Part shown: positions 358 to 43,872 of the stretch, piece by piece
Layout: each line of letters starts with the position of its first letter
How positions within the stretch are numbered: the first letter of the stretch is position 1
From: Lachnospiraceae bacterium
Lineage (GTDB): Bacteria; Bacillota; Clostridia; Lachnospirales; Lachnospiraceae
DNA: 64,000 nucleotides
Assembly (NCBI GenBank): GCA_017437065.1
Contig: JAFSBX010000141.1
Location: 62,001-126,000, forward strand
Direction: 5' to 3'
Notes under the pieces: generated by a model
Told to the model about the DNA's origin: nothing
The model's input: only the letters and a program-made list of their open reading frames with translations
Database searches by the model: none
Translations under genes and position numbers: made by a program

Positions 358-1056
358 ATGCCGGGATTTTACGGATTTTATTTTGATCCAACTTATTATT
401 TAGTGTTAATTGGTGCAGTTCTTTGTATGTGGGCAAGTTTTAGGGTGAACAGCACCTTTAAGAAGTACAGCAGAGTAAAAAGTCGAAGCAATATGACAGG
501 AGCACAGGCAGCGGCAGAACTTTTACAGAGACAGGGAATTTTTGATGTACAGATTGAACATGTAAATGGAAATCTGACAGACCATTATGATCCAAGGTCT
601 AAAGTACTTAGACTTTCGGATGCGACTTATTCTTCAACTTCTGTAGCGGCTATTGGTGTAGCAGCTCATGAATGCGGACATGCCATTCAGCATAACGAAG
701 AATATCTGCCACTAAAGATAAGAAGTACAATTGTTCCTTTCGCTAATTTTGGCTGTCGTTTTGGGATTCCAATTATTTTACTGGGACTTTTCTTAGGGCA
801 GTTTTTTGTGGAATTGGGTATCTGGGTATTTGCTATTTCCGTTTTATTCCAGATTATTACCCTTCCGGTAGAATTTAATGCTTCCGGCAGGGCAGTGGCT
901 TTGCTTTCGGATTATGGTATTTTGGACAGCGAAGAAAACGGACAGTGCAAAAAGGTACTGCGTGCGGCGGCACTTACTTACGTAGCAGCGGCAGCGTCTT
1001 CCATATTACAGCTTTTAAGGCTAATTCTTTTATTCGGTAACAGAAGAGATGATTAG
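358..1056 (+). CDS. Neutral zinc metallopeptidase, YugP type, membrane-bound
   Basis: A membrane protein of about 232 residues. It has a hydrophobic N-terminal segment (about residues 8-24), the zinc-binding motif HECGH at about residues 104-108, and further membrane segments at about 125-170 and near the C-terminus. This is the pattern of the YugP/PF04298 family, commonly found between fmt and rsmB. Substrate and role are not established. An ATG at 352 is also possible but lies only one base after the AAAGGGA ribosome binding site, so the ATG at 358 (7 bases spacing) is preferred. The protein starts 29 bases after fmt and is probably cotranscribed. Confidence 0.85.
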   Translation: MPGFYGFYFDPTYYLVLIGAVLCMWASFRVNSTFKKYSRVKSRSNMTGAQAAAELLQRQGIFDVQIEHVNGNLTDHYDPRSKVLRLSDATYSSTSVAAIGVAAHECGHAIQHNEEYLPLKIRSTIVPFANFGCRFGIPIILLGLFLGQFFVELGIWVFAISVLFQIITLPVEFNASGRAVALLSDYGILDSEENGQCKKVLRAAALTYVAAAASSILQLLRLILLFGNRRDD

Positions 1057-1155
1057 TAAGCGTCCTGTATGTTCTGCATATCTTTAGATTAAAATAGATT
1101 GGGTTATATGCAGAGCAGGATATGGGAAGGAAAGTTAAAAGGCAGGTTATATATA

Positions 1156-2511
1156 TTGGAAAATACACGGGAAATTATATTGGATATGCTGATGGAAATC
1201 ACGGCGGCAAAAGAATATAGCCATAAAGTGATAGGACAGGTTTTGGAAAAGTATAATTATATGAGCGGACAGGATAAAGCGTTCATGAAAAGAGTTACGG
1301 AAGGGACGATTGAACGTCAGATACAAATTGACTACATCCTGAATTCTTTTTCTAATGTAAAGGTCAATAAAATGAAGCCCCTGATTCGCAATTTACTGCG
1401 TATGAGCGTGTATCAGCTTTTGTTCATGGAAAGCATACCCGACAGTGCGGTATGTAATGAAGCGGTAAAACTGGCGGTAAAACGTAAATTTCATAATTTA
1501 AAAGGATTTGTAAACGGAGTGCTGAGAAATATTGCAAGAAATAAAGAAACTATTCAATATCCCGACAAACAAAAAGAACCTGTAAAAGCACTCTCCATAA
1601 TGTATTCCTGTCCGGAATGGATAGTAGAAATGTGGATAAAGGAGTACGGAGTGGAACTTTGTGAGGATATATTGCAGGCACTTTTGGAAATCCATCCGGT
1701 GACGGTCAGATTTGATGAAACATTAGTGGAAAAAGAACTGGAAGAAGTGTTGACAGAGTTGCAAAAAAAGGCAAAGCATGTGGATAAGCAGCCGTATCTT
1801 CCTTATGCTTATACAGTTACCGGAGCGGAAGGATTTGCAAATATTCCGGCATTTGTGGAAGGAAAGTTTACTGTGCAGGATGTCAGTTCCATGCTGGCCG
1901 TAGAGGCAGCAGGAATCAGGAAAGGTGACTTTGTACTGGATGTGTGTGCAGCACCCGGTGGAAAAAGTCTTCATGCGGCAACCAAAACCGGGGAAAGAGG
2001 ACGTGTGGAAGCCAGAGATGTCACCGAAAGAAAAACGGATTTAATAGAAGAAAACAAGAGGCGGCTGAAAAAAGATTGGGTGGAAACCAAAGTCTGGGAT
2101 GCAGCCGTTTTGGATGAAAGCATGATAGAGCGTGCGGATGTAGTACTTGCAGATGTGCCTTGTTCAGGCCTTGGTATTCTTGGGAAAAAGAGAGACATTA
2201 AATATCGGGTAAGCGAAGAGTCTTTGGAAGAGGTTGCAAAACTTCAAAAGAAGATTATCGACACAGTCTGGCAGTATGTAAAGCCGGGCGGAACGCTTCT
2301 TTATAGTACCTGTACCATCAATCGGGTGGAAAATCAGGATATGGTTTTATATATTACAGAAAAGTATCCTTTTGAGACAGAGAGTTTAAATGACTATCTG
2401 CCCCGTGAACTGTGGAATGAAACAACAGAAAAAGGATTTTTACAGTTTCTGCCGGGAGTGCAGGAAAGCGACGGCTTTTTTATTGCAAGATTAAGGAGAA
2501 AAGCTGAGTAA
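1156..2511 (+). CDS. rsmB: 16S rRNA m5C967 methyltransferase RsmB
   Basis: About 451 residues. An N-terminal NusB-like helical domain (about 1-130) is followed by a Rossmann-fold SAM methyltransferase. Motif I is DVCAAPGGKS, the motif IV cysteine is in ADVPCSGLG, and the catalytic motif VI cysteine is in YSTCTI; both cysteines needed for m5C chemistry are present. It methylates C967 of 16S rRNA. The open frame extends upstream to an ATG at 1099, but the family normally begins close to the NTREI motif, and a TTG at 1156 sits 9 bases after AAAGGCAGG; I therefore prefer the TTG, with moderate confidence. It is followed 17 bases later by rlmN. Confidence 0.9.
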   Translation: MENTREIILDMLMEITAAKEYSHKVIGQVLEKYNYMSGQDKAFMKRVTEGTIERQIQIDYILNSFSNVKVNKMKPLIRNLLRMSVYQLLFMESIPDSAVCNEAVKLAVKRKFHNLKGFVNGVLRNIARNKETIQYPDKQKEPVKALSIMYSCPEWIVEMWIKEYGVELCEDILQALLEIHPVTVRFDETLVEKELEEVLTELQKKAKHVDKQPYLPYAYTVTGAEGFANIPAFVEGKFTVQDVSSMLAVEAAGIRKGDFVLDVCAAPGGKSLHAATKTGERGRVEARDVTERKTDLIEENKRRLKKDWVETKVWDAAVLDESMIERADVVLADVPCSGLGILGKKRDIKYRVSEESLEEVAKLQKKIIDTVWQYVKPGGTLLYSTCTINRVENQDMVLYITEKYPFETESLNDYLPRELWNETTEKGFLQFLPGVQESDGFFIARLRRKAE

Positions 2512-2528: not shown

Positions 2529-3566
2529 ATGGAAAAAACAGATATAAAATCTCTGACATTGGAAGAATTACAGGCAGAGATGCAGAAACTTTCGGAAAAG
2601 CCTTTCCGGGCAAAACAGATTTACGAGTGGATGCACAAAAAACTGGCAAGAAGTTTTGAGGAAATGACAAATGTATCCAAGGAGCTACGAAAAAAGTGTG
2701 AAGAAAATTATGAATTTACGGCACTACATGCAGTACAGGTGCAGGAGTCAAAAATAGACGGAACAAAGAAATTTTTATTTGAGCTGGCAGATGGAAATGT
2801 GGTAGAAAGCGTATGGATGAAATACAAGCATGGCAATTCTGTGTGTATTTCTTCTCAGGTAGGCTGCAGGATGGGATGTCGCTTTTGCGCGTCTACGCTG
2901 GATGGTTTGGAACGGTCACTGCTTCCTTCGGAAATGTTAGACCAGATTTATGAAATTACCAGACTGACCGGAGAGCGTGTTTCCAATGTAGTTGTCATGG
3001 GAACCGGAGAGCCGATGGATAATTATGATAATCTGTTGAAGTTTTTAAAGCTACTGACGGATGAAAACGGACTGAACATCAGTCAGAGAAATATTACGGT
3101 ATCTACCTGTGGATTAGTACCACGGATGCGGCAGCTTGCAGAGGAACAATTACAAATAACACTGGCGTTATCTTTACATGCAACAACAGATGAAAAAAGA
3201 AGAAAATTAATGCCGATAGCCAATAAATACGGACTGGATGAGCTGATGGAAGCTTGTGCATACTATTTTGAAAAGACAGGAAGAAGGATTACATTTGAAT
3301 ACAGTCTGGTAGGCGGTGTCAACGATACGGATGAGGATGCAAAAGAGCTGATAGAGTTAGTAAAGCCCTTGAATTGTCATGTAAATCTCATTCCGGTAAA
3401 CCCCATTGCAGAGCGCGATTACGTGGAATCTGCAATGGAACAGGTGCAGGCATTTAAAAATAAACTTGAAAAAAACAAAATAAATGTTACCGTACGTAGA
3501 GAAATGGGAAGGGATATAGATGGTGCTTGTGGTCAACTTAGACGTAAGCATACAAAGAATATCTGA
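2529..3566 (+). CDS. rlmN: Dual-specificity rRNA/tRNA adenine C2 methyltransferase RlmN
   Basis: A radical-SAM enzyme of 345 residues, normal length for the family. The cluster-binding CxxxCxxC is CRMGCRFC at about residues 113-120, followed by the GTGEP glycine-rich motif and SLHA. The C-terminal catalytic cysteine in GACGQL (about C334), which forms the methyl carrier/covalent intermediate pair with C-type residues of the core, is present. It methylates A2503 of 23S rRNA and A37 of some tRNAs. In related genomes rlmN is directly followed by the PP2C phosphatase gene; here about 2.5 kb separate them because of an inserted two-gene unit. Confidence 0.95.
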   Translation: MEKTDIKSLTLEELQAEMQKLSEKPFRAKQIYEWMHKKLARSFEEMTNVSKELRKKCEENYEFTALHAVQVQESKIDGTKKFLFELADGNVVESVWMKYKHGNSVCISSQVGCRMGCRFCASTLDGLERSLLPSEMLDQIYEITRLTGERVSNVVVMGTGEPMDNYDNLLKFLKLLTDENGLNISQRNITVSTCGLVPRMRQLAEEQLQITLALSLHATTDEKRRKLMPIANKYGLDELMEACAYYFEKTGRRITFEYSLVGGVNDTDEDAKELIELVKPLNCHVNLIPVNPIAERDYVESAMEQVQAFKNKLEKNKINVTVRREMGRDIDGACGQLRRKHTKNI

Positions 3567-3615
3567 GATGGATGAAAAAAATGTATTATTTGAGTGATTT
3601 ACGTTTCGGTAAGAT

Positions 3616-3643
3616 TTGAAATAATAAGATATATTAATATATT
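3616..3643 (+). promoter_or_regulatory. Putative sigma-A promoter of the ATPase/partner insert
   Basis: TTGAAA at 3616-3621 and TATATT at 3638-3643 are separated by 16 bases, 27 bases before the ATPase start codon. The surrounding region is strongly A+T rich, which makes chance matches likelier, but a private promoter fits an inserted unit inside an older operon. Confidence 0.45.
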
Positions 3644-3669
3644 TAGAGAGGAATTATGAGGAGAAGAAG

Positions 3670-5058
3670 ATGCAGATTTGGATAGGAGTAGAAAATTTTG
3701 CCAAAATTGAAAGTGCGAAAATTTGTATTAATAACTATACTGTTTTAGTTGGTCCCAATAATAGTGGTAAGACTTTTTTAATGCAACTCATGCAAGGGAT
3801 GAGTAAAAAGTTAGTTTATATGATGGATGAAACTATAATGAGTATCTTGTTGGCAAATAAATGTGAAGCATATAAAGAATATGTTATTTGCTCTGAAAAT
3901 ATTGCAGAATTAGTTTCTCATATTAATTCGAAACTTTCATGTGAAAAAGAAAAAATCATAAAAGAAATATTTGGGAAAAATATTGTTATAGAAAAATTGT
4001 ATATTGATATTTCGATGGAAGAAAGTGATGTATATAGTCTATTAATGATTGATGTTGCTGGAAAAAATGCCATAGAAAATATAAAACGATTTACAGAAGG
4101 ATTTGAACCGGTTGCAGTTGAAATTTTCAGTAAAGTGCAAATGGGAATGGTAACCATTGTGACAAAAAAAAGTACAGATAGTCAAGAAATAACCCCCATG
4201 GCTATATTAGGAGCATTTGAGAAGGATGAAATGGGGGCGTTAAAGAGTGCACTGCATTCAGTTGTTGATATTGAAAGTTTATTTTTACCAGCATCAAGAA
4301 CCGGATTAATGTTACTATATAGAGAGTTTTTTGCAAAAAAAACAGATAAGGAACTTGCTTTTGTTGTTAAAGAAAATAGACTTGTTGAGGATAAAGAACA
4401 TCTTGCTAATTTGACGCAACCGGTATATGAATTTTTACGTTTTTTGCAGACTTATTCAGAGCGCGAGGACATGCGAAAAAAATTTGAAAAGGAGCTAATT
4501 TTTTTTGAGGAACAACTAATAGAAGGACATATTAGTGTAGATGAGCAAGGTGTTTTTTCGTATAGTTCCGAAAATGAAAATAATAATGTTCCGATGTATT
4601 TAGCATCATCTATGATTAATGAAGTAGCACCTTTAATTTTGGCGATTACATCTCAAAATGTATACAACAGGTTGATTATAGATGAAGTAGAAGCAAGTCT
4701 GCATCCACAAAAACAGTTGGAACTTGTTCGATTTTTGAACCGATTAAGTAACAAGGGGATGCAGATTATTGTAAGTACACATAGTGATACATTCGTTTCT
4801 AAATTGAATAATTTATATATTTTGTCGGAAATGGTAAAAACAAATGAAGTTGATATTTTAGAACAATTTAATTTAGAAAAAGAGGATTTGATTTCTACTG
4901 AAAAACTATTTGTGTATGAGTTTGTAAACCAGTCAAATGGAAAGAGTGTCGTAAGGGAGATTAAAGCCAATGAAAAGATGGGGTATCAATTTGACTTGTT
5001 TACAGCCTCAGCAATGCATCTTTATGAGGAAGCGAATAAATTAGGAGAAATAAAATAA
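3670..5058 (+). CDS. AAA family P-loop ATPase (SMC/OLD-like), unknown role
   Basis: A 462-residue ATPase of the ABC/SMC-like AAA_15/AAA_21 type. The Walker A motif is GPNNSGKT at residues 28-35, the Walker B is LIIDEVEASLHP with D338 and E339, and the switch histidine motif STHSD is at 369-373. The middle 200-300 region is charged and probably helical. No TOPRIM domain follows, so it is not a complete OLD nuclease. The gene is visibly richer in A+T than its neighbours and sits with the next gene inside the conserved rlmN-prpC operon. ATPases of this type often pair with an effector in defence modules (RloAB, PARIS, Septu, Gabija), but assignment of that role here is inference. The start is supported by GAGGAGAAGAAG just upstream. 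Confidence 0.7.
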   Translation: MQIWIGVENFAKIESAKICINNYTVLVGPNNSGKTFLMQLMQGMSKKLVYMMDETIMSILLANKCEAYKEYVICSENIAELVSHINSKLSCEKEKIIKEIFGKNIVIEKLYIDISMEESDVYSLLMIDVAGKNAIENIKRFTEGFEPVAVEIFSKVQMGMVTIVTKKSTDSQEITPMAILGAFEKDEMGALKSALHSVVDIESLFLPASRTGLMLLYREFFAKKTDKELAFVVKENRLVEDKEHLANLTQPVYEFLRFLQTYSEREDMRKKFEKELIFFEEQLIEGHISVDEQGVFSYSSENENNNVPMYLASSMINEVAPLILAITSQNVYNRLIIDEVEASLHPQKQLELVRFLNRLSNKGMQIIVSTHSDTFVSKLNNLYILSEMVKTNEVDILEQFNLEKEDLISTEKLFVYEFVNQSNGKSVVREIKANEKMGYQFDLFTASAMHLYEEANKLGEIK

Positions 5059-5784
5059 ATGATAAATCTGGTTTTTCGAGAATTTACTCCACTAAAATCT
5101 GTTGAAAAAAATATTTTATATAAAGTGGATAAAGATGTAATCGTAAAATTTATTGAGCAACATGAGGTCACTAAAGAAATTGTTAATGTATATTTTGGTT
5201 TAAAAGATGGACAATATGGAATTTATGCTAATGAATACAGACGTCCGGGAACACAAAAAGAAGGATGTAAAACAACAGATGTTTTATCATGTGTGGTAGA
5301 CGAGCAGAAAAAAGAAATTAAATCTCTTATTTTTGATGTGAAAAGTAATATTTCTGCGTTTAGTGATGACTTGTCGAAAACAGAAGCTATGATAACTGCA
5401 ATAAAGGAAGTGCGTGATTTTATAGAGCAAATTCGTGCAGAATTATTACATAAGGATAGTTTTTTATTATATTATAAAGCTGATGGTTATGTGGAAGAAG
5501 AACGTGTTGGAATAGTCACTAAAAGTTTTGAATCTGAGAAATTCAAAAGAGTTGCAGAAAAACTTGAGCGAATGGTAACAGAAGAGGATACAGATGTTCC
5601 GACATTGGTTTCATATAAGTTGAAAAATAACATTAGGGCATATAGGACAGAAATTGAGCCATTATATAATTTTGCAGACAAAAAGATTGTGCTTAATAAA
5701 ACTACTTATCAGCTAAAAGTCTTTGTATTACAGAAAATAAATGATACAGATTATGAAATAACAATAAAAATGGCTAATGAATGA
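5059..5784 (+). CDS. Unrecognised partner of the AAA ATPase
   Basis: A 241-residue protein with no signal peptide or membrane segment. It starts at the base following the ATPase stop codon, so the two are almost certainly translated together. I do not recognise a family. It has no visible HNH, TOPRIM or HEPN motif. One hint is a possible PD-(D/E)xK-like core: an acidic residue at D81 in SCVVDEQKK, then SLIFDVKSN with D93-V-K95 on a predicted strand; this is weak. A helical region follows (about 100-130) and a second mixed segment (about 170-241). Base composition is as A+T rich as the ATPase gene. Possible roles are an effector or regulator of the ATPase. Confidence 0.6.
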   Translation: MINLVFREFTPLKSVEKNILYKVDKDVIVKFIEQHEVTKEIVNVYFGLKDGQYGIYANEYRRPGTQKEGCKTTDVLSCVVDEQKKEIKSLIFDVKSNISAFSDDLSKTEAMITAIKEVRDFIEQIRAELLHKDSFLLYYKADGYVEEERVGIVTKSFESEKFKRVAEKLERMVTEEDTDVPTLVSYKLKNNIRAYRTEIEPLYNFADKKIVLNKTTYQLKVFVLQKINDTDYEITIKMANE

Positions 5785-6037
5785 CAGTAAGGTATTAAAT
5801 AAGAACAAGGCAAAGGCCGAGTGATGAGAAAGGGAGTTTTTTCTTGCCCATTTACTGTTTATATGCTAATATTTGATGATGTAAAATAGTATAATTTACT
5901 AAAAAGTGTGATTATATAGAATAATGCATTCATAAGTCACGCAGAGGGAATAAAGCCCTTGAAAAGTGGTAAATTACTAATTAATGAAGACATAAAAAAG
6001 AAACAGACTTACGATAGGACTGACAGGAGGAAAAAAG

Positions 6038-6784
6038 GTGTTAAAGACATTCTCCATAACGGATATTGGACAAAAGAGAAAATTAAATCAGGATTATGTT
6101 TATACATCGGAAATGCCAATCGGCAATCTGTCAAATGTATTTATTGTGGCAGATGGTATGGGAGGACATAATGCGGGAGATTACGCTTCCAAATATACGG
6201 TGGAAACAATTGTAGAGGAAATAGAGCGTTCTTTTGAAAAAAATCCTGTCAGAATATTGGAAAAAGCAATAGAAGAGGCAAACAGCCATATACGCAGGAA
6301 GGCAAGTGAAGATGAGTCTTTGAGCGGAATGGGGACAACAGTTGTTGTGGCTACCTGTATAGGAAAATATTTAAAAGTAGCAAATGTAGGCGACAGCAGA
6401 CTGTACATTGTGAATGATGAAATTACTCAGATTACAAGAGACCATTCTTTAGTGGAAGAAATGGTAAGAATGGGTGGAATTGACAGAGAAACTGCGAAAC
6501 ATCATCCGGATAAAAATATAATTACAAGGGCCGTAGGTGCCAAAGAGACAGTGGAAATCGACTTCTTTGATGTGGAATTAAAAGAAGGGGATGTTGTTCT
6601 TATGTGCTCGGACGGATTGACAAATATGCTTGAGGATGAAGAAATCCGTATGATTTTAAACGGTCAGAGGGACATTGTGGAAAAAGCACAGGAACTGGTG
6701 AAGGCAGCCAACAATAACGGAGGGAAAGATAACATAAGTGTTATAGTGATTGAACCTTTCGCGAAGGAGAGTAGTAAGCCATGA
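6038..6784 (+). CDS. prpC: PP2C-type protein serine/threonine phosphatase
   Basis: A 248-residue PPM/PP2C phosphatase. Metal-binding aspartates lie in ADGMGGHNAG, and the other family motifs are SGMGTT, VGDSRLY, RDHSLVEEM, MCSDGLTNML and GGKDNISV. It removes phosphate from targets of the adjacent PASTA kinase PrkC, and acts in the cytosol. The start is a GTG with a strong AGGAGG at 6025-6030. It overlaps prkC by four bases (ATGA), a sign of translational coupling. The 253 bases upstream hold a TATAAT at 5890-5895 without a clear -35 box; otherwise I see nothing there. Confidence 0.93.
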   Translation: MLKTFSITDIGQKRKLNQDYVYTSEMPIGNLSNVFIVADGMGGHNAGDYASKYTVETIVEEIERSFEKNPVRILEKAIEEANSHIRRKASEDESLSGMGTTVVVATCIGKYLKVANVGDSRLYIVNDEITQITRDHSLVEEMVRMGGIDRETAKHHPDKNIITRAVGAKETVEIDFFDVELKEGDVVLMCSDGLTNMLEDEEIRMILNGQRDIVEKAQELVKAANNNGGKDNISVIVIEPFAKESSKP

Positions 6785-8922
6785 TTAAAATTGGAATGAT
6801 AATAGGAGACCGCTATGAGATTTTGGAAAAAATCGGAACCGGCGGTATGTCCGATGTATATAAAGCAAAAGACCATAAGCTGAACCGTTTTGTTGCGGTA
6901 AAGGTGTTAAAACAGGAATTTAGTGAAAATGCTAATTTTGTTTCTAAATTCCGAATTGAAGCACAGGCGGCAGCAGGGTTAATGCACCCGAACATTGTAA
7001 ACGTATATGATGTTGGAGAGGAAAATGGCATTCATTATATTGTAATGGAGCTTGTGGAAGGTATTACACTGAAAAAATATATAGAGAAGAAGGCAAGGCT
7101 TTCCGTAAAAGAAGCAGTCAGCATTGCCATTCAGGTATCCATGGGAATTGAGGCAGCACATAACAGTCACATTATTCACAGGGATATTAAGCCGCAGAAT
7201 ATTATTATTTCCAAAGAAGGTAAAGTAAAAGTTACCGATTTTGGTATTGCAAAAGCGGCAACCAGTAATACAATAACTTCTAATGTTATGGGTTCGGTAC
7301 ATTACACATCACCGGAGCAGGCAAGAGGCGGTTACAGTGATGAAAAGAGTGATATTTATTCGCTCGGTATTACGATGTTTGAAATGCTTACGGGACGCGT
7401 GCCGTTTAACGGAGAAACTACTGTGGCAATTGCCATCAAGCATATACAGGAAGAAATGCCGTCTCCAAGAGAATATGTGTCTGAGATTCCAATTTGTGTG
7501 GAACAGATTGTATTTAAATGTTGTCAGAAGAGTCCGGACAGACGTTACCAGTCGATGGCAGAGTTGGTGGATGATTTGAAAAAAGCACTGATTACGCCGG
7601 ATGAGGATTTTGTAAAAGTAGTAGATCCGGATGAAGAGGCAAGTACAAAATTCATATCTGACAGGGATATGGCACAAATAAAAAGACAGTCGGAAAGACG
7701 GGAGTACATGGAAGAAGCCATGAGACTTAAGAGACAGTCTGATGTGGAGGATGAGGAGATAGAAGAAGACGAGGACGGAGATTATAGTGAGGATGACTAT
7801 GATGAGGATTATGATCCGAAAATGGAAAAACTCACTACTATCCTTGCTATTGTTGCAGCGGTTTTAATCGGTGGTATTATTCTTTTTCTGGTTGGAAAAA
7901 CAGTAGGACTTTTTTCGTTGGGAGATAACAGCGAAAAAGAAGAAAACAGCATTGTACCGGAAACACAAATAACTGAGCCGATAAACGAACAGGTGGAAAT
8001 GATTAATGTCATTGGTATGACGATGGAGGAAGCAAGAACAGCGTTAGTGAAGCTGGGGCTTAGTCCTGAATTTGATTATGTGGAATCGGATTCGGTAGAA
8101 GAAGGTATAGTAATCAGTGCAGATATATCTACAAGCACACTGGTGGATGTGAACTCTGTGGTAAAAGTGACAGTCAGTGCCGGACGAAAGGGTGTGGAAG
8201 TACCGGACGTGTCAGGAGTTTCTTATGCAGAAGCAGTAACTATGTTACAACAGAAAGGTTTTGTTGCAAATAAGGCAGAGAGTTATTCGTCCGAAGTAGA
8301 AAAAGGAAATGTTATTTCCCAGACACCGGCAGCGGGTGACAAAGCACCCAGTGGTTCGGCTGTGACAGTAAGAGTGAGTCTTGGTGCGGAGGAAAATAAA
8401 GTCAGAGTACCAAATGTCATCGGATTAGATGAGGAAGATGCGACTGTATCATTGATAGAAGCCGGGTTAACTCCCGGTGTTGTGGAAGAGGTAAATAACG
8501 AAGATACAGCATTGACAGGATTGATTTGTTATCAGAGTTATTCGGTTGGATCCTATGTGGAAGCAGGAACAGTCGTAGATATGAAGTTAAGCATCGGGCC
8601 GAAGGCGGTAACTTATAAATATAATGGAAGTATTCAGGCACCGACAAAGGAAGAAGATCCGGATTATAAAGGTGATGTGAGTGTTCATGTGGTAATTACC
8701 AGTGCGGATGGAATGACCATTTTGGATACAACAACAAGTTCTTTTCCGATTTCCATCAATAGTGCGGGAATTAAATCGGCTACAGGAACCATCACTTTTA
8801 CTTATACAGTAACAACAGAACCGACAACATCAACAAATCCGGAAACGGGAGAAACCATTACCGTACCGGGAACCAGTATGGAAAAGACGGTAACAAGACC
8901 TATTGAATTTACCGAGGAATAA
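6781..8922 (+). CDS. prkC: PASTA-domain Ser/Thr protein kinase
   Basis: A 713-residue Hanks-type receptor kinase. The cytosolic kinase domain (about 10-275) has the glycine loop GTGGMSDVY, the catalytic lysine in VAVKVL, HRDIKPQN with HRD at 133-135, DFGIAKA and the SPEQARGG activation-loop region. An acidic linker (about 315-348) precedes a single membrane helix at about 350-372. Outside are three PASTA domains (about 400-605), the second and third with the VPDVSG and VPNVIG openings, and a Thr-rich C-terminal region. PrkC-type kinases sense muropeptides or lipid II and control growth, division and spore germination. The pairing with prpC and rsgA is the usual one. Confidence 0.95.
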   Translation: MIKIGMIIGDRYEILEKIGTGGMSDVYKAKDHKLNRFVAVKVLKQEFSENANFVSKFRIEAQAAAGLMHPNIVNVYDVGEENGIHYIVMELVEGITLKKYIEKKARLSVKEAVSIAIQVSMGIEAAHNSHIIHRDIKPQNIIISKEGKVKVTDFGIAKAATSNTITSNVMGSVHYTSPEQARGGYSDEKSDIYSLGITMFEMLTGRVPFNGETTVAIAIKHIQEEMPSPREYVSEIPICVEQIVFKCCQKSPDRRYQSMAELVDDLKKALITPDEDFVKVVDPDEEASTKFISDRDMAQIKRQSERREYMEEAMRLKRQSDVEDEEIEEDEDGDYSEDDYDEDYDPKMEKLTTILAIVAAVLIGGIILFLVGKTVGLFSLGDNSEKEENSIVPETQITEPINEQVEMINVIGMTMEEARTALVKLGLSPEFDYVESDSVEEGIVISADISTSTLVDVNSVVKVTVSAGRKGVEVPDVSGVSYAEAVTMLQQKGFVANKAESYSSEVEKGNVISQTPAAGDKAPSGSAVTVRVSLGAEENKVRVPNVIGLDEEDATVSLIEAGLTPGVVEEVNNEDTALTGLICYQSYSVGSYVEAGTVVDMKLSIGPKAVTYKYNGSIQAPTKEEDPDYKGDVSVHVVITSADGMTILDTTTSSFPISINSAGIKSATGTITFTYTVTTEPTTSTNPETGETITVPGTSMEKTVTRPIEFTEE

Positions 8923-43205: not shown

Positions 43206-43496
43206 ATGAGCATGAATTTGTCTGAAAATATAATAGTAGAATTAATTATACTTGCTAAAAAGTATCGGATTAAAAAGATGTTACTGTTCGGTTCCAGAGC
43301 AAGAGGAGATAATAAAGAACGTAGTGATATTGACCTGGCCGTCAGTGGTGGGGACATTGTCGGGTTCAGAACAGATGTTGATGATGTTGTGCGTACACTT
43401 TTAATGTTTGATGTTGTCAATCTGGATGGTAATGTTCAGGAAGAACTATTGGAGTCAATTAGGAAAGAGGGAATAATTTTATATGAAGAAGTTTGA
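43206..43496 (+). CDS. MNT-type minimal nucleotidyltransferase
   Basis: 96 residues with an intact nucleotidyltransferase site, GSRARGDNKERSDIDLAV. This is the MNT family, which pairs with HEPN partners; in studied cases (such as MntA/HepT) it polyadenylylates the toxin to silence it. It overlaps the HEPN gene by 14 bases. An extended -10 box (TGGTATACT at 43157-43165) lies ahead; no good -35 is seen. Confidence 0.88.
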   Translation: MSMNLSENIIVELIILAKKYRIKKMLLFGSRARGDNKERSDIDLAVSGGDIVGFRTDVDDVVRTLLMFDVVNLDGNVQEELLESIRKEGIILYEEV

Positions 43497-43872
43497 AAAT
43501 TTTAAGAAGGCACTTTCTAACTTGGAAGAGTGTCGGAAATATGAAGCTCCCTATGATATTGTAACAGAAACAGGACTTGTAAATTTGTTTTCTATTTGTT
43601 TTGAACAATCGTGGAAAGCAATGAAAGAAATATTGGAAAATCATGGCTATAATGAGGGAAAAACAGGCTCACTCAAAATGATTATTAAATTAGCATACAG
43701 TGCAGGAATGGTTCAGGATGAAAAGGGCTGGTTAGAGATTCTTGATAAAAGAAATGAAATTGCTCATTCGTATAATGAAGAAGTGGCAGCAGATATTATA
43801 AATAAAACCAAAAGTTGTTATATTAATATGTTTGAGGAATTAAAAGTAGAAATAGAGACAAATTGGTTATAG
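43483..43872 (+). CDS. HEPN-domain protein, HI0074 family
   Basis: 129 residues, all-helical. It has the nucleotidyltransferase-substrate-binding family pattern and R-x4-H in RNEIAHSYNE, the RNase-site motif of HEPN toxins. With the MNT gene it forms a probable type VII-like toxin-antitoxin pair. RNase activity is inferred. Confidence 0.85.
   Translation: MKKFENFKKALSNLEECRKYEAPYDIVTETGLVNLFSICFEQSWKAMKEILENHGYNEGKTGSLKMIIKLAYSAGMVQDEKGWLEILDKRNEIAHSYNEEVAADIINKTKSCYINMFEELKVEIETNWL

Follow-up and report, generated by a model that had tools for sequence, protein, structure and literature searches.

A two-gene insert between rlmN and prpC in a Lachnospiraceae bacterium, predicted to encode an OLD-type ATPase and a divergent PD-(D/E)xK-type nuclease

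Introduction

What are the two A+T-rich genes that separate rlmN from prpC in this genome? A preliminary description of the window (the whole stretch of DNA analysed here, 64 kb long) recognized an ATPase and a partner that resembled nothing familiar, and proposed that the two may form a defence or conflict module of an undescribed type. We call the genes A and B. The profile-profile search and structure prediction proposed for the partner, and the survey of rlmN–prpC neighbours, have now been run. The coordinates of the region are collected in Table 1.

Table 1. Features of the rlmN–prpC region, in positions of the window
Feature	Position	Strand	Basis or remark
rlmN	2529..3566	+	ORF list; name assigned by eye
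Inserted segment, ~2.43 kb	3553..5984		Limits approximate; missing at the site in relatives examined
Promoter-like site TTGAAA-16-TATATT, upstream of the pair	3616..3643	+	Not above chance
Gene A, OLD-type ABC ATPase, 462 aa	3670..5058	+	Pfam and PADLOC matches
Walker A, residues 27–35, VGPNNSGKT	3748..3774	+	P29 aside, invariant among the four ATPases aligned
Gene B, divergent PD-(D/E)xK-type nuclease (predicted), 241 aa	5059..5784	+	Invariant residues, model, profile match
D74 codon	5278..5280	+	Invariant in 22/22 aligned; just ahead of core strand 75–81
D93-V94-K95 codons, D-x-K motif	5335..5343	+	D and K invariant in 22/22 aligned
Likely leftover of the original rlmN 3′ end and prpC ribosome-binding region	5985..6035	+	Alignment to L092
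prpC, right-hand neighbour	6038..6784	+	GTG start; name assigned by eye

The inserted segment

Similarity between the window and L092, the closest relative, which belongs to the same genus, has an rlmN with 90% identity and an empty rlmN–prpC site, ends at about 3552 in the last rlmN codons and picks up again at about 5985. The insert thus measures about 2.43 kb, and the separation of the two genes by inserted DNA is real. The last rlmN codons are unlike those of L092 because the insert starts there. The short stretch between the insert and prpC scored 32 against the same stretch of L092, with its rlmN-tail and ribosome-binding parts taken jointly, and 300 shuffles reached 25 at best. A search of the insert ends for terminal repeats gave no convincing ones.

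The survey confirmed that rlmN and prpC are usually adjacent: they adjoin in 47 of the 49 other same-family loci examined, the two exceptions being a 0.66-kb gap and a locus with other genes. Among the 29 loci that remain when the window is taken from the 30 rlmN loci fetched, the gap was about 5–136 bases in 28 and 664 bases in L107. In 20 further loci, picked by us from the same list of rlmN matches, the prpC start lay 80–215 bases from the region edge inside rlmN in 19, and the last (L153) has the other genes at the site. Among the loci examined, the pair is inserted between rlmN and prpC in the window alone. The other two genomes of the genus have a short rlmN–prpC gap (L092, L093) and are without the ATPase, which is found in one of the three at E≤1e-10; genome G022 has a window-type pair elsewhere and an empty rlmN–prpC site. 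The pair is not general at this spot in the relatives examined.

Its base composition is not normal either. The G+C content of A and B is 0.307 and 0.293 (0.24 and 0.186 at third positions), versus 0.404 for rlmN and 0.394 for prpC. When the 64 kb are cut into 2,115-base segments in steps of 100, G+C reaches its minimum at the pair, and only 0.3% of the segments are equally low. The two genes follow each other without a gap, the ATPase stop directly abutting the ATG of B. The private promoter suggested for the pair did not hold up: 13 promoter-like sites were counted, that at 3616–3643 among them, against an average of 14.2 in shuffles. By eye, and within the window, no prophage, integrase or defence island was seen around the pair.

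The 664-base gap of L107 (positions 800–1560, minus strand, genome G001) holds a small ORF that looks membrane-protein-like by eye, and ends in a second, decayed rlmN 3′ end with 49 of 57 aligned bases identical. Taken with the window, this points to the rlmN tail as a place where insertions occasionally occur.

The ATPase

Gene A is, as judged from its sequence, an OLD-type ABC ATPase. It matches AAA_21 (1.2e-19) and AAA_15 (6.6e-16) in Pfam. Its best PADLOC match is PD-T4-4_A (1.6e-39), which covers residues 6–444 and so aligns nearly end to end; weaker PADLOC matches are to AriA (3.2e-22), OLD, Gabija and Septu. The motifs GPNNSGKT, IIDEVEASLHP and STHSD noted earlier are all there, and their core residues, with the exception of P29, are invariant in four aligned ATPases. 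The invariant residues include K34 of Walker A, R210 in LFLPASR, D338 and E339 of Walker B, and H371 of the H-loop. No TOPRIM domain was matched in gene A by Pfam.

Phylogeny and distribution

An alignment of the ATPase was used to fetch the best 80 of at least 157 relatives (L007–L086). This list is not strictly ordered by E-value: L080, with a partner of the sister type described below, stands further down at 9e-47. A maximum-likelihood tree was built from 70 ATPases, which include 64 of the 80 loci and exclude L016, L027, L043, L045, L055 and L058 as well as the fragments or outliers L064, L066, L067, L068, L072–L075, L084 and L086; it was rooted at the midpoint, which is not informative. 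All rows with window-type partners, together with two relatives that lack B, form one 24-row clade that includes the window (support 100/99). It joins (95/99) a 29-row clade (97/94) with another type of partner. The PD-T4-4 copies L121–L123, which come from E. coli plasmids, and a Vibrio phage copy (L135) make up a separate ATPase clade (100/99), and archaeal loci form a further one with weak support (94/22). Partner type agrees with ATPase clade, as expected if the pair is co-inherited, to judge by the sequences. In the phage copy (Vibrio phage 1.202.O, L135:2131–4162), the ATPase and a small partner gene are flanked by the genes of a CI repressor on one side and of a DNA breaking-rejoining enzyme on the other.

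The window-type rows are mostly labelled Lachnospiraceae; L027 carries the label Gastranaerophilales, perhaps through a binning error. A search with B found the pair in 4 of 299 family genomes, the window's own among them. A fifth match, L006, was dropped, as by eye it resembles a chemotaxis-receptor ORF without the pair, and L002 is a weak partial match. At the level of the order, 3 of 392 genomes matched: the window's own, G022 and that of L089, the last one weak and partial. Neither rlmN nor prpC was found in the available flanks of the 80 loci. Neighbours mostly change between loci, with shared flanks in L009/L010 (after SpoIIIAH), L020/L022 and L025/L026. The Pfam tally of the neighbours comprises 110 of 130 flanking ORFs; the 20 set aside are genes for AIPR and Uma2, six small ORFs and a piece of an ATPase. 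The 25 families listed of 138 include neither integrases nor transposases; ResIII, a helicase family also seen in restriction enzymes, occurs in three members. Sister-type pairs occur on two closely similar viral contigs (L124, L125). Plasmids and viral contigs, when searched with single sequences, yielded no relative of B. The gene upstream of the pair is on the same strand in 22 of 22 window-type loci against a background of 84% (p 0.02) and in 25 of 30 sister loci (p 0.37), a difference we do not press.

This distribution bears on whether the pair might be a chromosomal repair or recombination pair, a RecF/SbcC-like ATPase and a nuclease with a housekeeping role. Such a role would suit the SMC_N match of gene A (1.6e-8, 34.7 bits, under the curated family cut-off of 40) and the flanking genes of relatives, which among those listed are largely of ordinary chromosomal families. 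We regard it as very improbable in view of the patchy occurrence just described, both by B in the family and by A in the genus, the low G+C, the neighbours that mostly differ between loci, and the AIPR/AbiU-like partners described below.

The partner

The preliminary description found no resemblance for B, and the libraries agree: Pfam, PADLOC, NCBIfam, PHROGs and PDB sequences recognise nothing in it, and with no library match it is not assigned to any housekeeping family. Sub-threshold library matches of B, for example to Lon and to a centrosomal coiled coil, were rejected. As a single sequence, B found no relative in genome contigs, whereas the ATPase alignment did find loci. In the first 25 of these (L007–L031), a B relative directly follows the ATPase in 22. 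The other three are L016, whose ATPase is split over two frames near the sequence end, and L021 and L031, which hold B remnants. The 22 include L007, the ATPase of which is the nearest relative (65% identity); its B frame (7408–8160) is interrupted, which is either real or an assembly error.

We aligned 22 B sequences: that of the window, 20 from loci L007–L031 and that of L005. L027, where the B frame is short, and L007, where it is broken, were left out. Six residues, E33, E59, D74, D93, K95 and Q124, are invariant in this set, whose members go down to 17% identity with the window protein. Of the D-x-K core D81, D93 and K95 suggested earlier, D93 and K95 therefore stand. D81 is outside the set of conserved acids, which consists of E33, E59, D74 and D93.

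The AlphaFold2 model of B has a mean pLDDT of 90.1 and a pTM of 0.85. In the model, D74 precedes strand 75–81, D93 ends strand 86–94, and helix 108–141, which carries Q124, is followed by a further strand. We take this order of core elements to be the PD-(D/E)xK layout. Foldseek found no significant fold for the model (best E 0.051 in PDB and 0.017 in BFVD). By our own reading, 18 of its top 50 PDB matches are PD-(D/E)xK enzymes; the first match is not one, and none is significant. As Foldseek gives nothing significant, the nuclease assignment rests on the motif, the topology and the comparison of partners below. The B family is coherent, with a PD-(D/E)xK-like topology as far as alignment and model indicate. 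A gene missed by the copies of Pfam, PADLOC, NCBIfam and PHROGs used here can thus be assigned a likely fold and a likely active site.

The sister-type partners (loci within L032–L080) look different. An alignment of 28 members shows two invariant residues, D89 and E108, and near-invariance of E47, G52, K110 and W183. When the window-type and sister-type profiles were compared by hhalign, the score was 35.2 (probability 50%, E 1.7e-4 for this single comparison), and 60 column shuffles gave 16.3 at most. Addition of PD-T4-4_B to the sister profile raised the score to 40.3 (shuffles 18.7 at most), and further addition of the archaeal partners to 44.6 with a probability of 87%; the shuffles cover the first two scores. 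Control profiles scored 20.3 (AIPR), 12.7 (Uma2) and 13.4 (PDDEXK_9) against the window type, the last two from alignments with 3 and 2 members. The window type did not rise above the AIPR control when compared with PD-T4-4_B by itself (20.9) or with the archaeal partners by themselves (17.0). The sister type itself links to both, with scores of 41.3 and 36.2. The alignment matches E33, D74, D93, K95 and Q124 of the window type with E47, D89, E108, K110 and a glutamine of the sister type. An AlphaFold2 model of one sister partner (pLDDT 86.2) has, by eye, the same core strand and helix order as B; Foldseek found no significant match for it (best E 0.072). We conclude that both types are homologous predicted nucleases, with a third acid that is D in the window type and E in the sister type.

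Relationship to known systems

With its motifs, its length and no TOPRIM match, gene A has the make-up of the ATPase in the class 'OLD-ABC ATPase + nuclease', which includes PD-T4-4 and WonAB. The invariant acids and lysine, the topology and the sister-profile match supply the adjoining PD-(D/E)xK-type nuclease, with Foldseek not significant. From profile comparison and predicted folds, which link B to the sister-clade partners, the pair looks like a new branch of this class and not, as had been suggested, an undescribed type. For the other part of that suggestion, a two-gene defence or conflict module whose nuclease is of the D-x-K type, there is good support in the topology, the six invariant residues, the scattered positions, and the AIPR/AbiU and Uma2 genes beside relatives. 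The class is thereby extended to a well-supported, mostly Lachnospiraceae clade, in which the PADLOC models used here detect the ATPase and overlook the partner.

PD-T4-4, a system known from E. coli (PMC9519451; Vassallo et al. 2022), has an ATPase that aligns nearly end to end with ours through PD-T4-4_A, and its second gene has, by eye in L121–L123, a K-S-C-D ... D-x-K core. The window-type pair differs in occurring mostly in Lachnospiraceae and in a partner that fits no PD-T4-4_B model: none of the 22 B members matches at E≤1, whereas the controls L121–L123 reach 1.1e-43 to 6.1e-108. These references also match PD-T4-4_A far better than gene A does (3.2e-123 or better). One of the four PD-T4-4_B models, PDLC04034, matched none of 299 phylum genomes and none of 14 controls either. 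Membership of PD-T4-4 proper was rejected, with no PD-T4-4_B match and an ATPase outside the PD-T4-4 clade, which is represented by three plasmid rows and one phage row.

A pair of OLD-ABC ATPase and novel REase, with an Anaerovibrio reference, is credited to Krishnan et al. by papers that cite the work. As they describe it, the ATPase goes with a restriction enzyme of novel fold, which our sister clade appears to resemble; we set the two side by side by description only. The window type differs in having D-x-K and not E-x-K, in the extra invariant E59 and in the AIPR-like third gene of one subclade.

PARIS (AriA/AriB) and Gabija likewise combine a sensor ATPase of the OLD type and an effector nuclease, but their nuclease is of the TOPRIM type, and Gabija also has a helicase. 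PARIS was rejected: the AriA model matches A, but B has neither a PADLOC match nor a Pfam TOPRIM match. Gabija was rejected as well, A being without a TOPRIM match and the next genes being B and prpC, so that there is no GajB helicase.

Of the analogues found, the best studied is WonAB of the V. cholerae WASA-1 prophage, an OLD-ABC ATPase with a PD-(D/E)xK-variant nuclease (PMC12137116). K34, R182, E300 and H333 are the four residues of WonA at which mutation abolished function; compared by published positions, these resemble K34, R210, E339 and H371 of gene A in number and spacing. WonB, at 16.1 kDa, differs from the 241-residue B, and the prophage setting differs from the chromosomal insertion here. 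Both WonAB genes and both active sites are needed, and the toxicity of WonB depends on the presence of an active WonA. Translation stops while genomic DNA stays intact, from which the authors propose rRNA or tRNA as the target (PMC12137116).

Proposed role

Taken together, gene A is an ATPase and gene B a predicted nuclease, and the pair is probably a horizontally acquired anti-phage (abortive-infection) operon that encodes an ATPase-gated nuclease. The gating of B by A, the trigger and the target we infer by analogy. A would dimerise on ATP, detect a sign of infection and license B, which would then cut nucleic acid; by analogy with WonB, tRNA or rRNA is a likelier substrate than the chromosome. 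Translation and growth would stop ahead of phage production. Neither gene would suffice by itself, and B would be toxic only with A present and active.

The same ATPase-gated nuclease could instead cut invading DNA in a restriction-like clearance, with infected cells surviving. This reading overlaps with abortive infection and differs from it in target and outcome only. We consider it possible, if on the unlikely side: PD-(D/E)xK enzymes are, as general knowledge has it, mostly DNases, and the non-significant Foldseek matches of B include FokI, Nt.BspD6I, PaqCI, HamA and Shedu, but no restriction-modification gene adjoins the pair in the window by eye, and the intact genomic DNA and halted translation of WonAB point the other way. 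A toxin-antitoxin-like addiction module, in which A restrains B, loss of A frees B and phage defence is secondary, is improbable. It would account for the abutting genes and the small insert, and Pfam calls AAA_21 'putative AbiEii toxin, Type IV TA system'; the dependence of WonB toxicity on active WonA speaks against it. L021, whose ATPase frame is full-length beside a mere remnant of B, counts neither for this reading nor against it.

Companion genes of the relatives

Of the 25 loci L007–L031, 11 have an AIPR/AbiU-like third gene (about 590–640 aa) downstream of the pair, namely L019 (7979–9898), L020–L023 and L025–L030. A single subclade of 11 rows (100/98) contains ten of these; the eleventh, L027, is outside the tree sample. 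The third gene of L019 matches AIPR (PF10592, 2.3e-49) in Pfam and AbiU (1.5e-79) in PADLOC, those of L021 and L025 also match AIPR in Pfam, and the others were assigned by similarity to these three. No third gene was found within the available flanks of sister-type loci; L072, an ATPase fragment, has one. The window's insert has no such gene, and its genome no PF10592 profile match, a profile found in 1 of 14 controls. AIPR is reported to be common in restriction-modification operons. No description of an ATPase–nuclease–AIPR trio was found in the literature searched, which covers subscription papers and preprints thinly.

A reading of the window-type pairs as a distinct defence subtype, which in one subclade has three parts, with one ATPase sensor and two effectors (nuclease and AIPR/AbiU protein) in a layered response, seems to us rather doubtful. 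In L021 the ATPase frame is full-length and the AIPR gene almost so, while B is reduced to a remnant; under the three-part reading, the second effector would have taken over there. The two-gene and three-gene loci provide a natural series for asking how one ATPase sensor couples to different effectors.

A Uma2-type putative restriction endonuclease gene lies beside the pair in L008 (5447–5956), L009 (1816–2373) and L010 (8136–8732), upstream of it in two loci and downstream in one. A Uma2-like piece is also present near the sister-type locus L046 (7964–8248).

Elsewhere in the window, positions 43206–43872 hold another A+T-rich gene pair, in which a Polbeta nucleotidyltransferase gene (PF18765, 1.1e-13) overlaps that of a nucleotidyltransferase substrate-binding protein (PF08780, 1.5e-26). 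MNT/HEPN-type toxin-antitoxin pairs have this arrangement.
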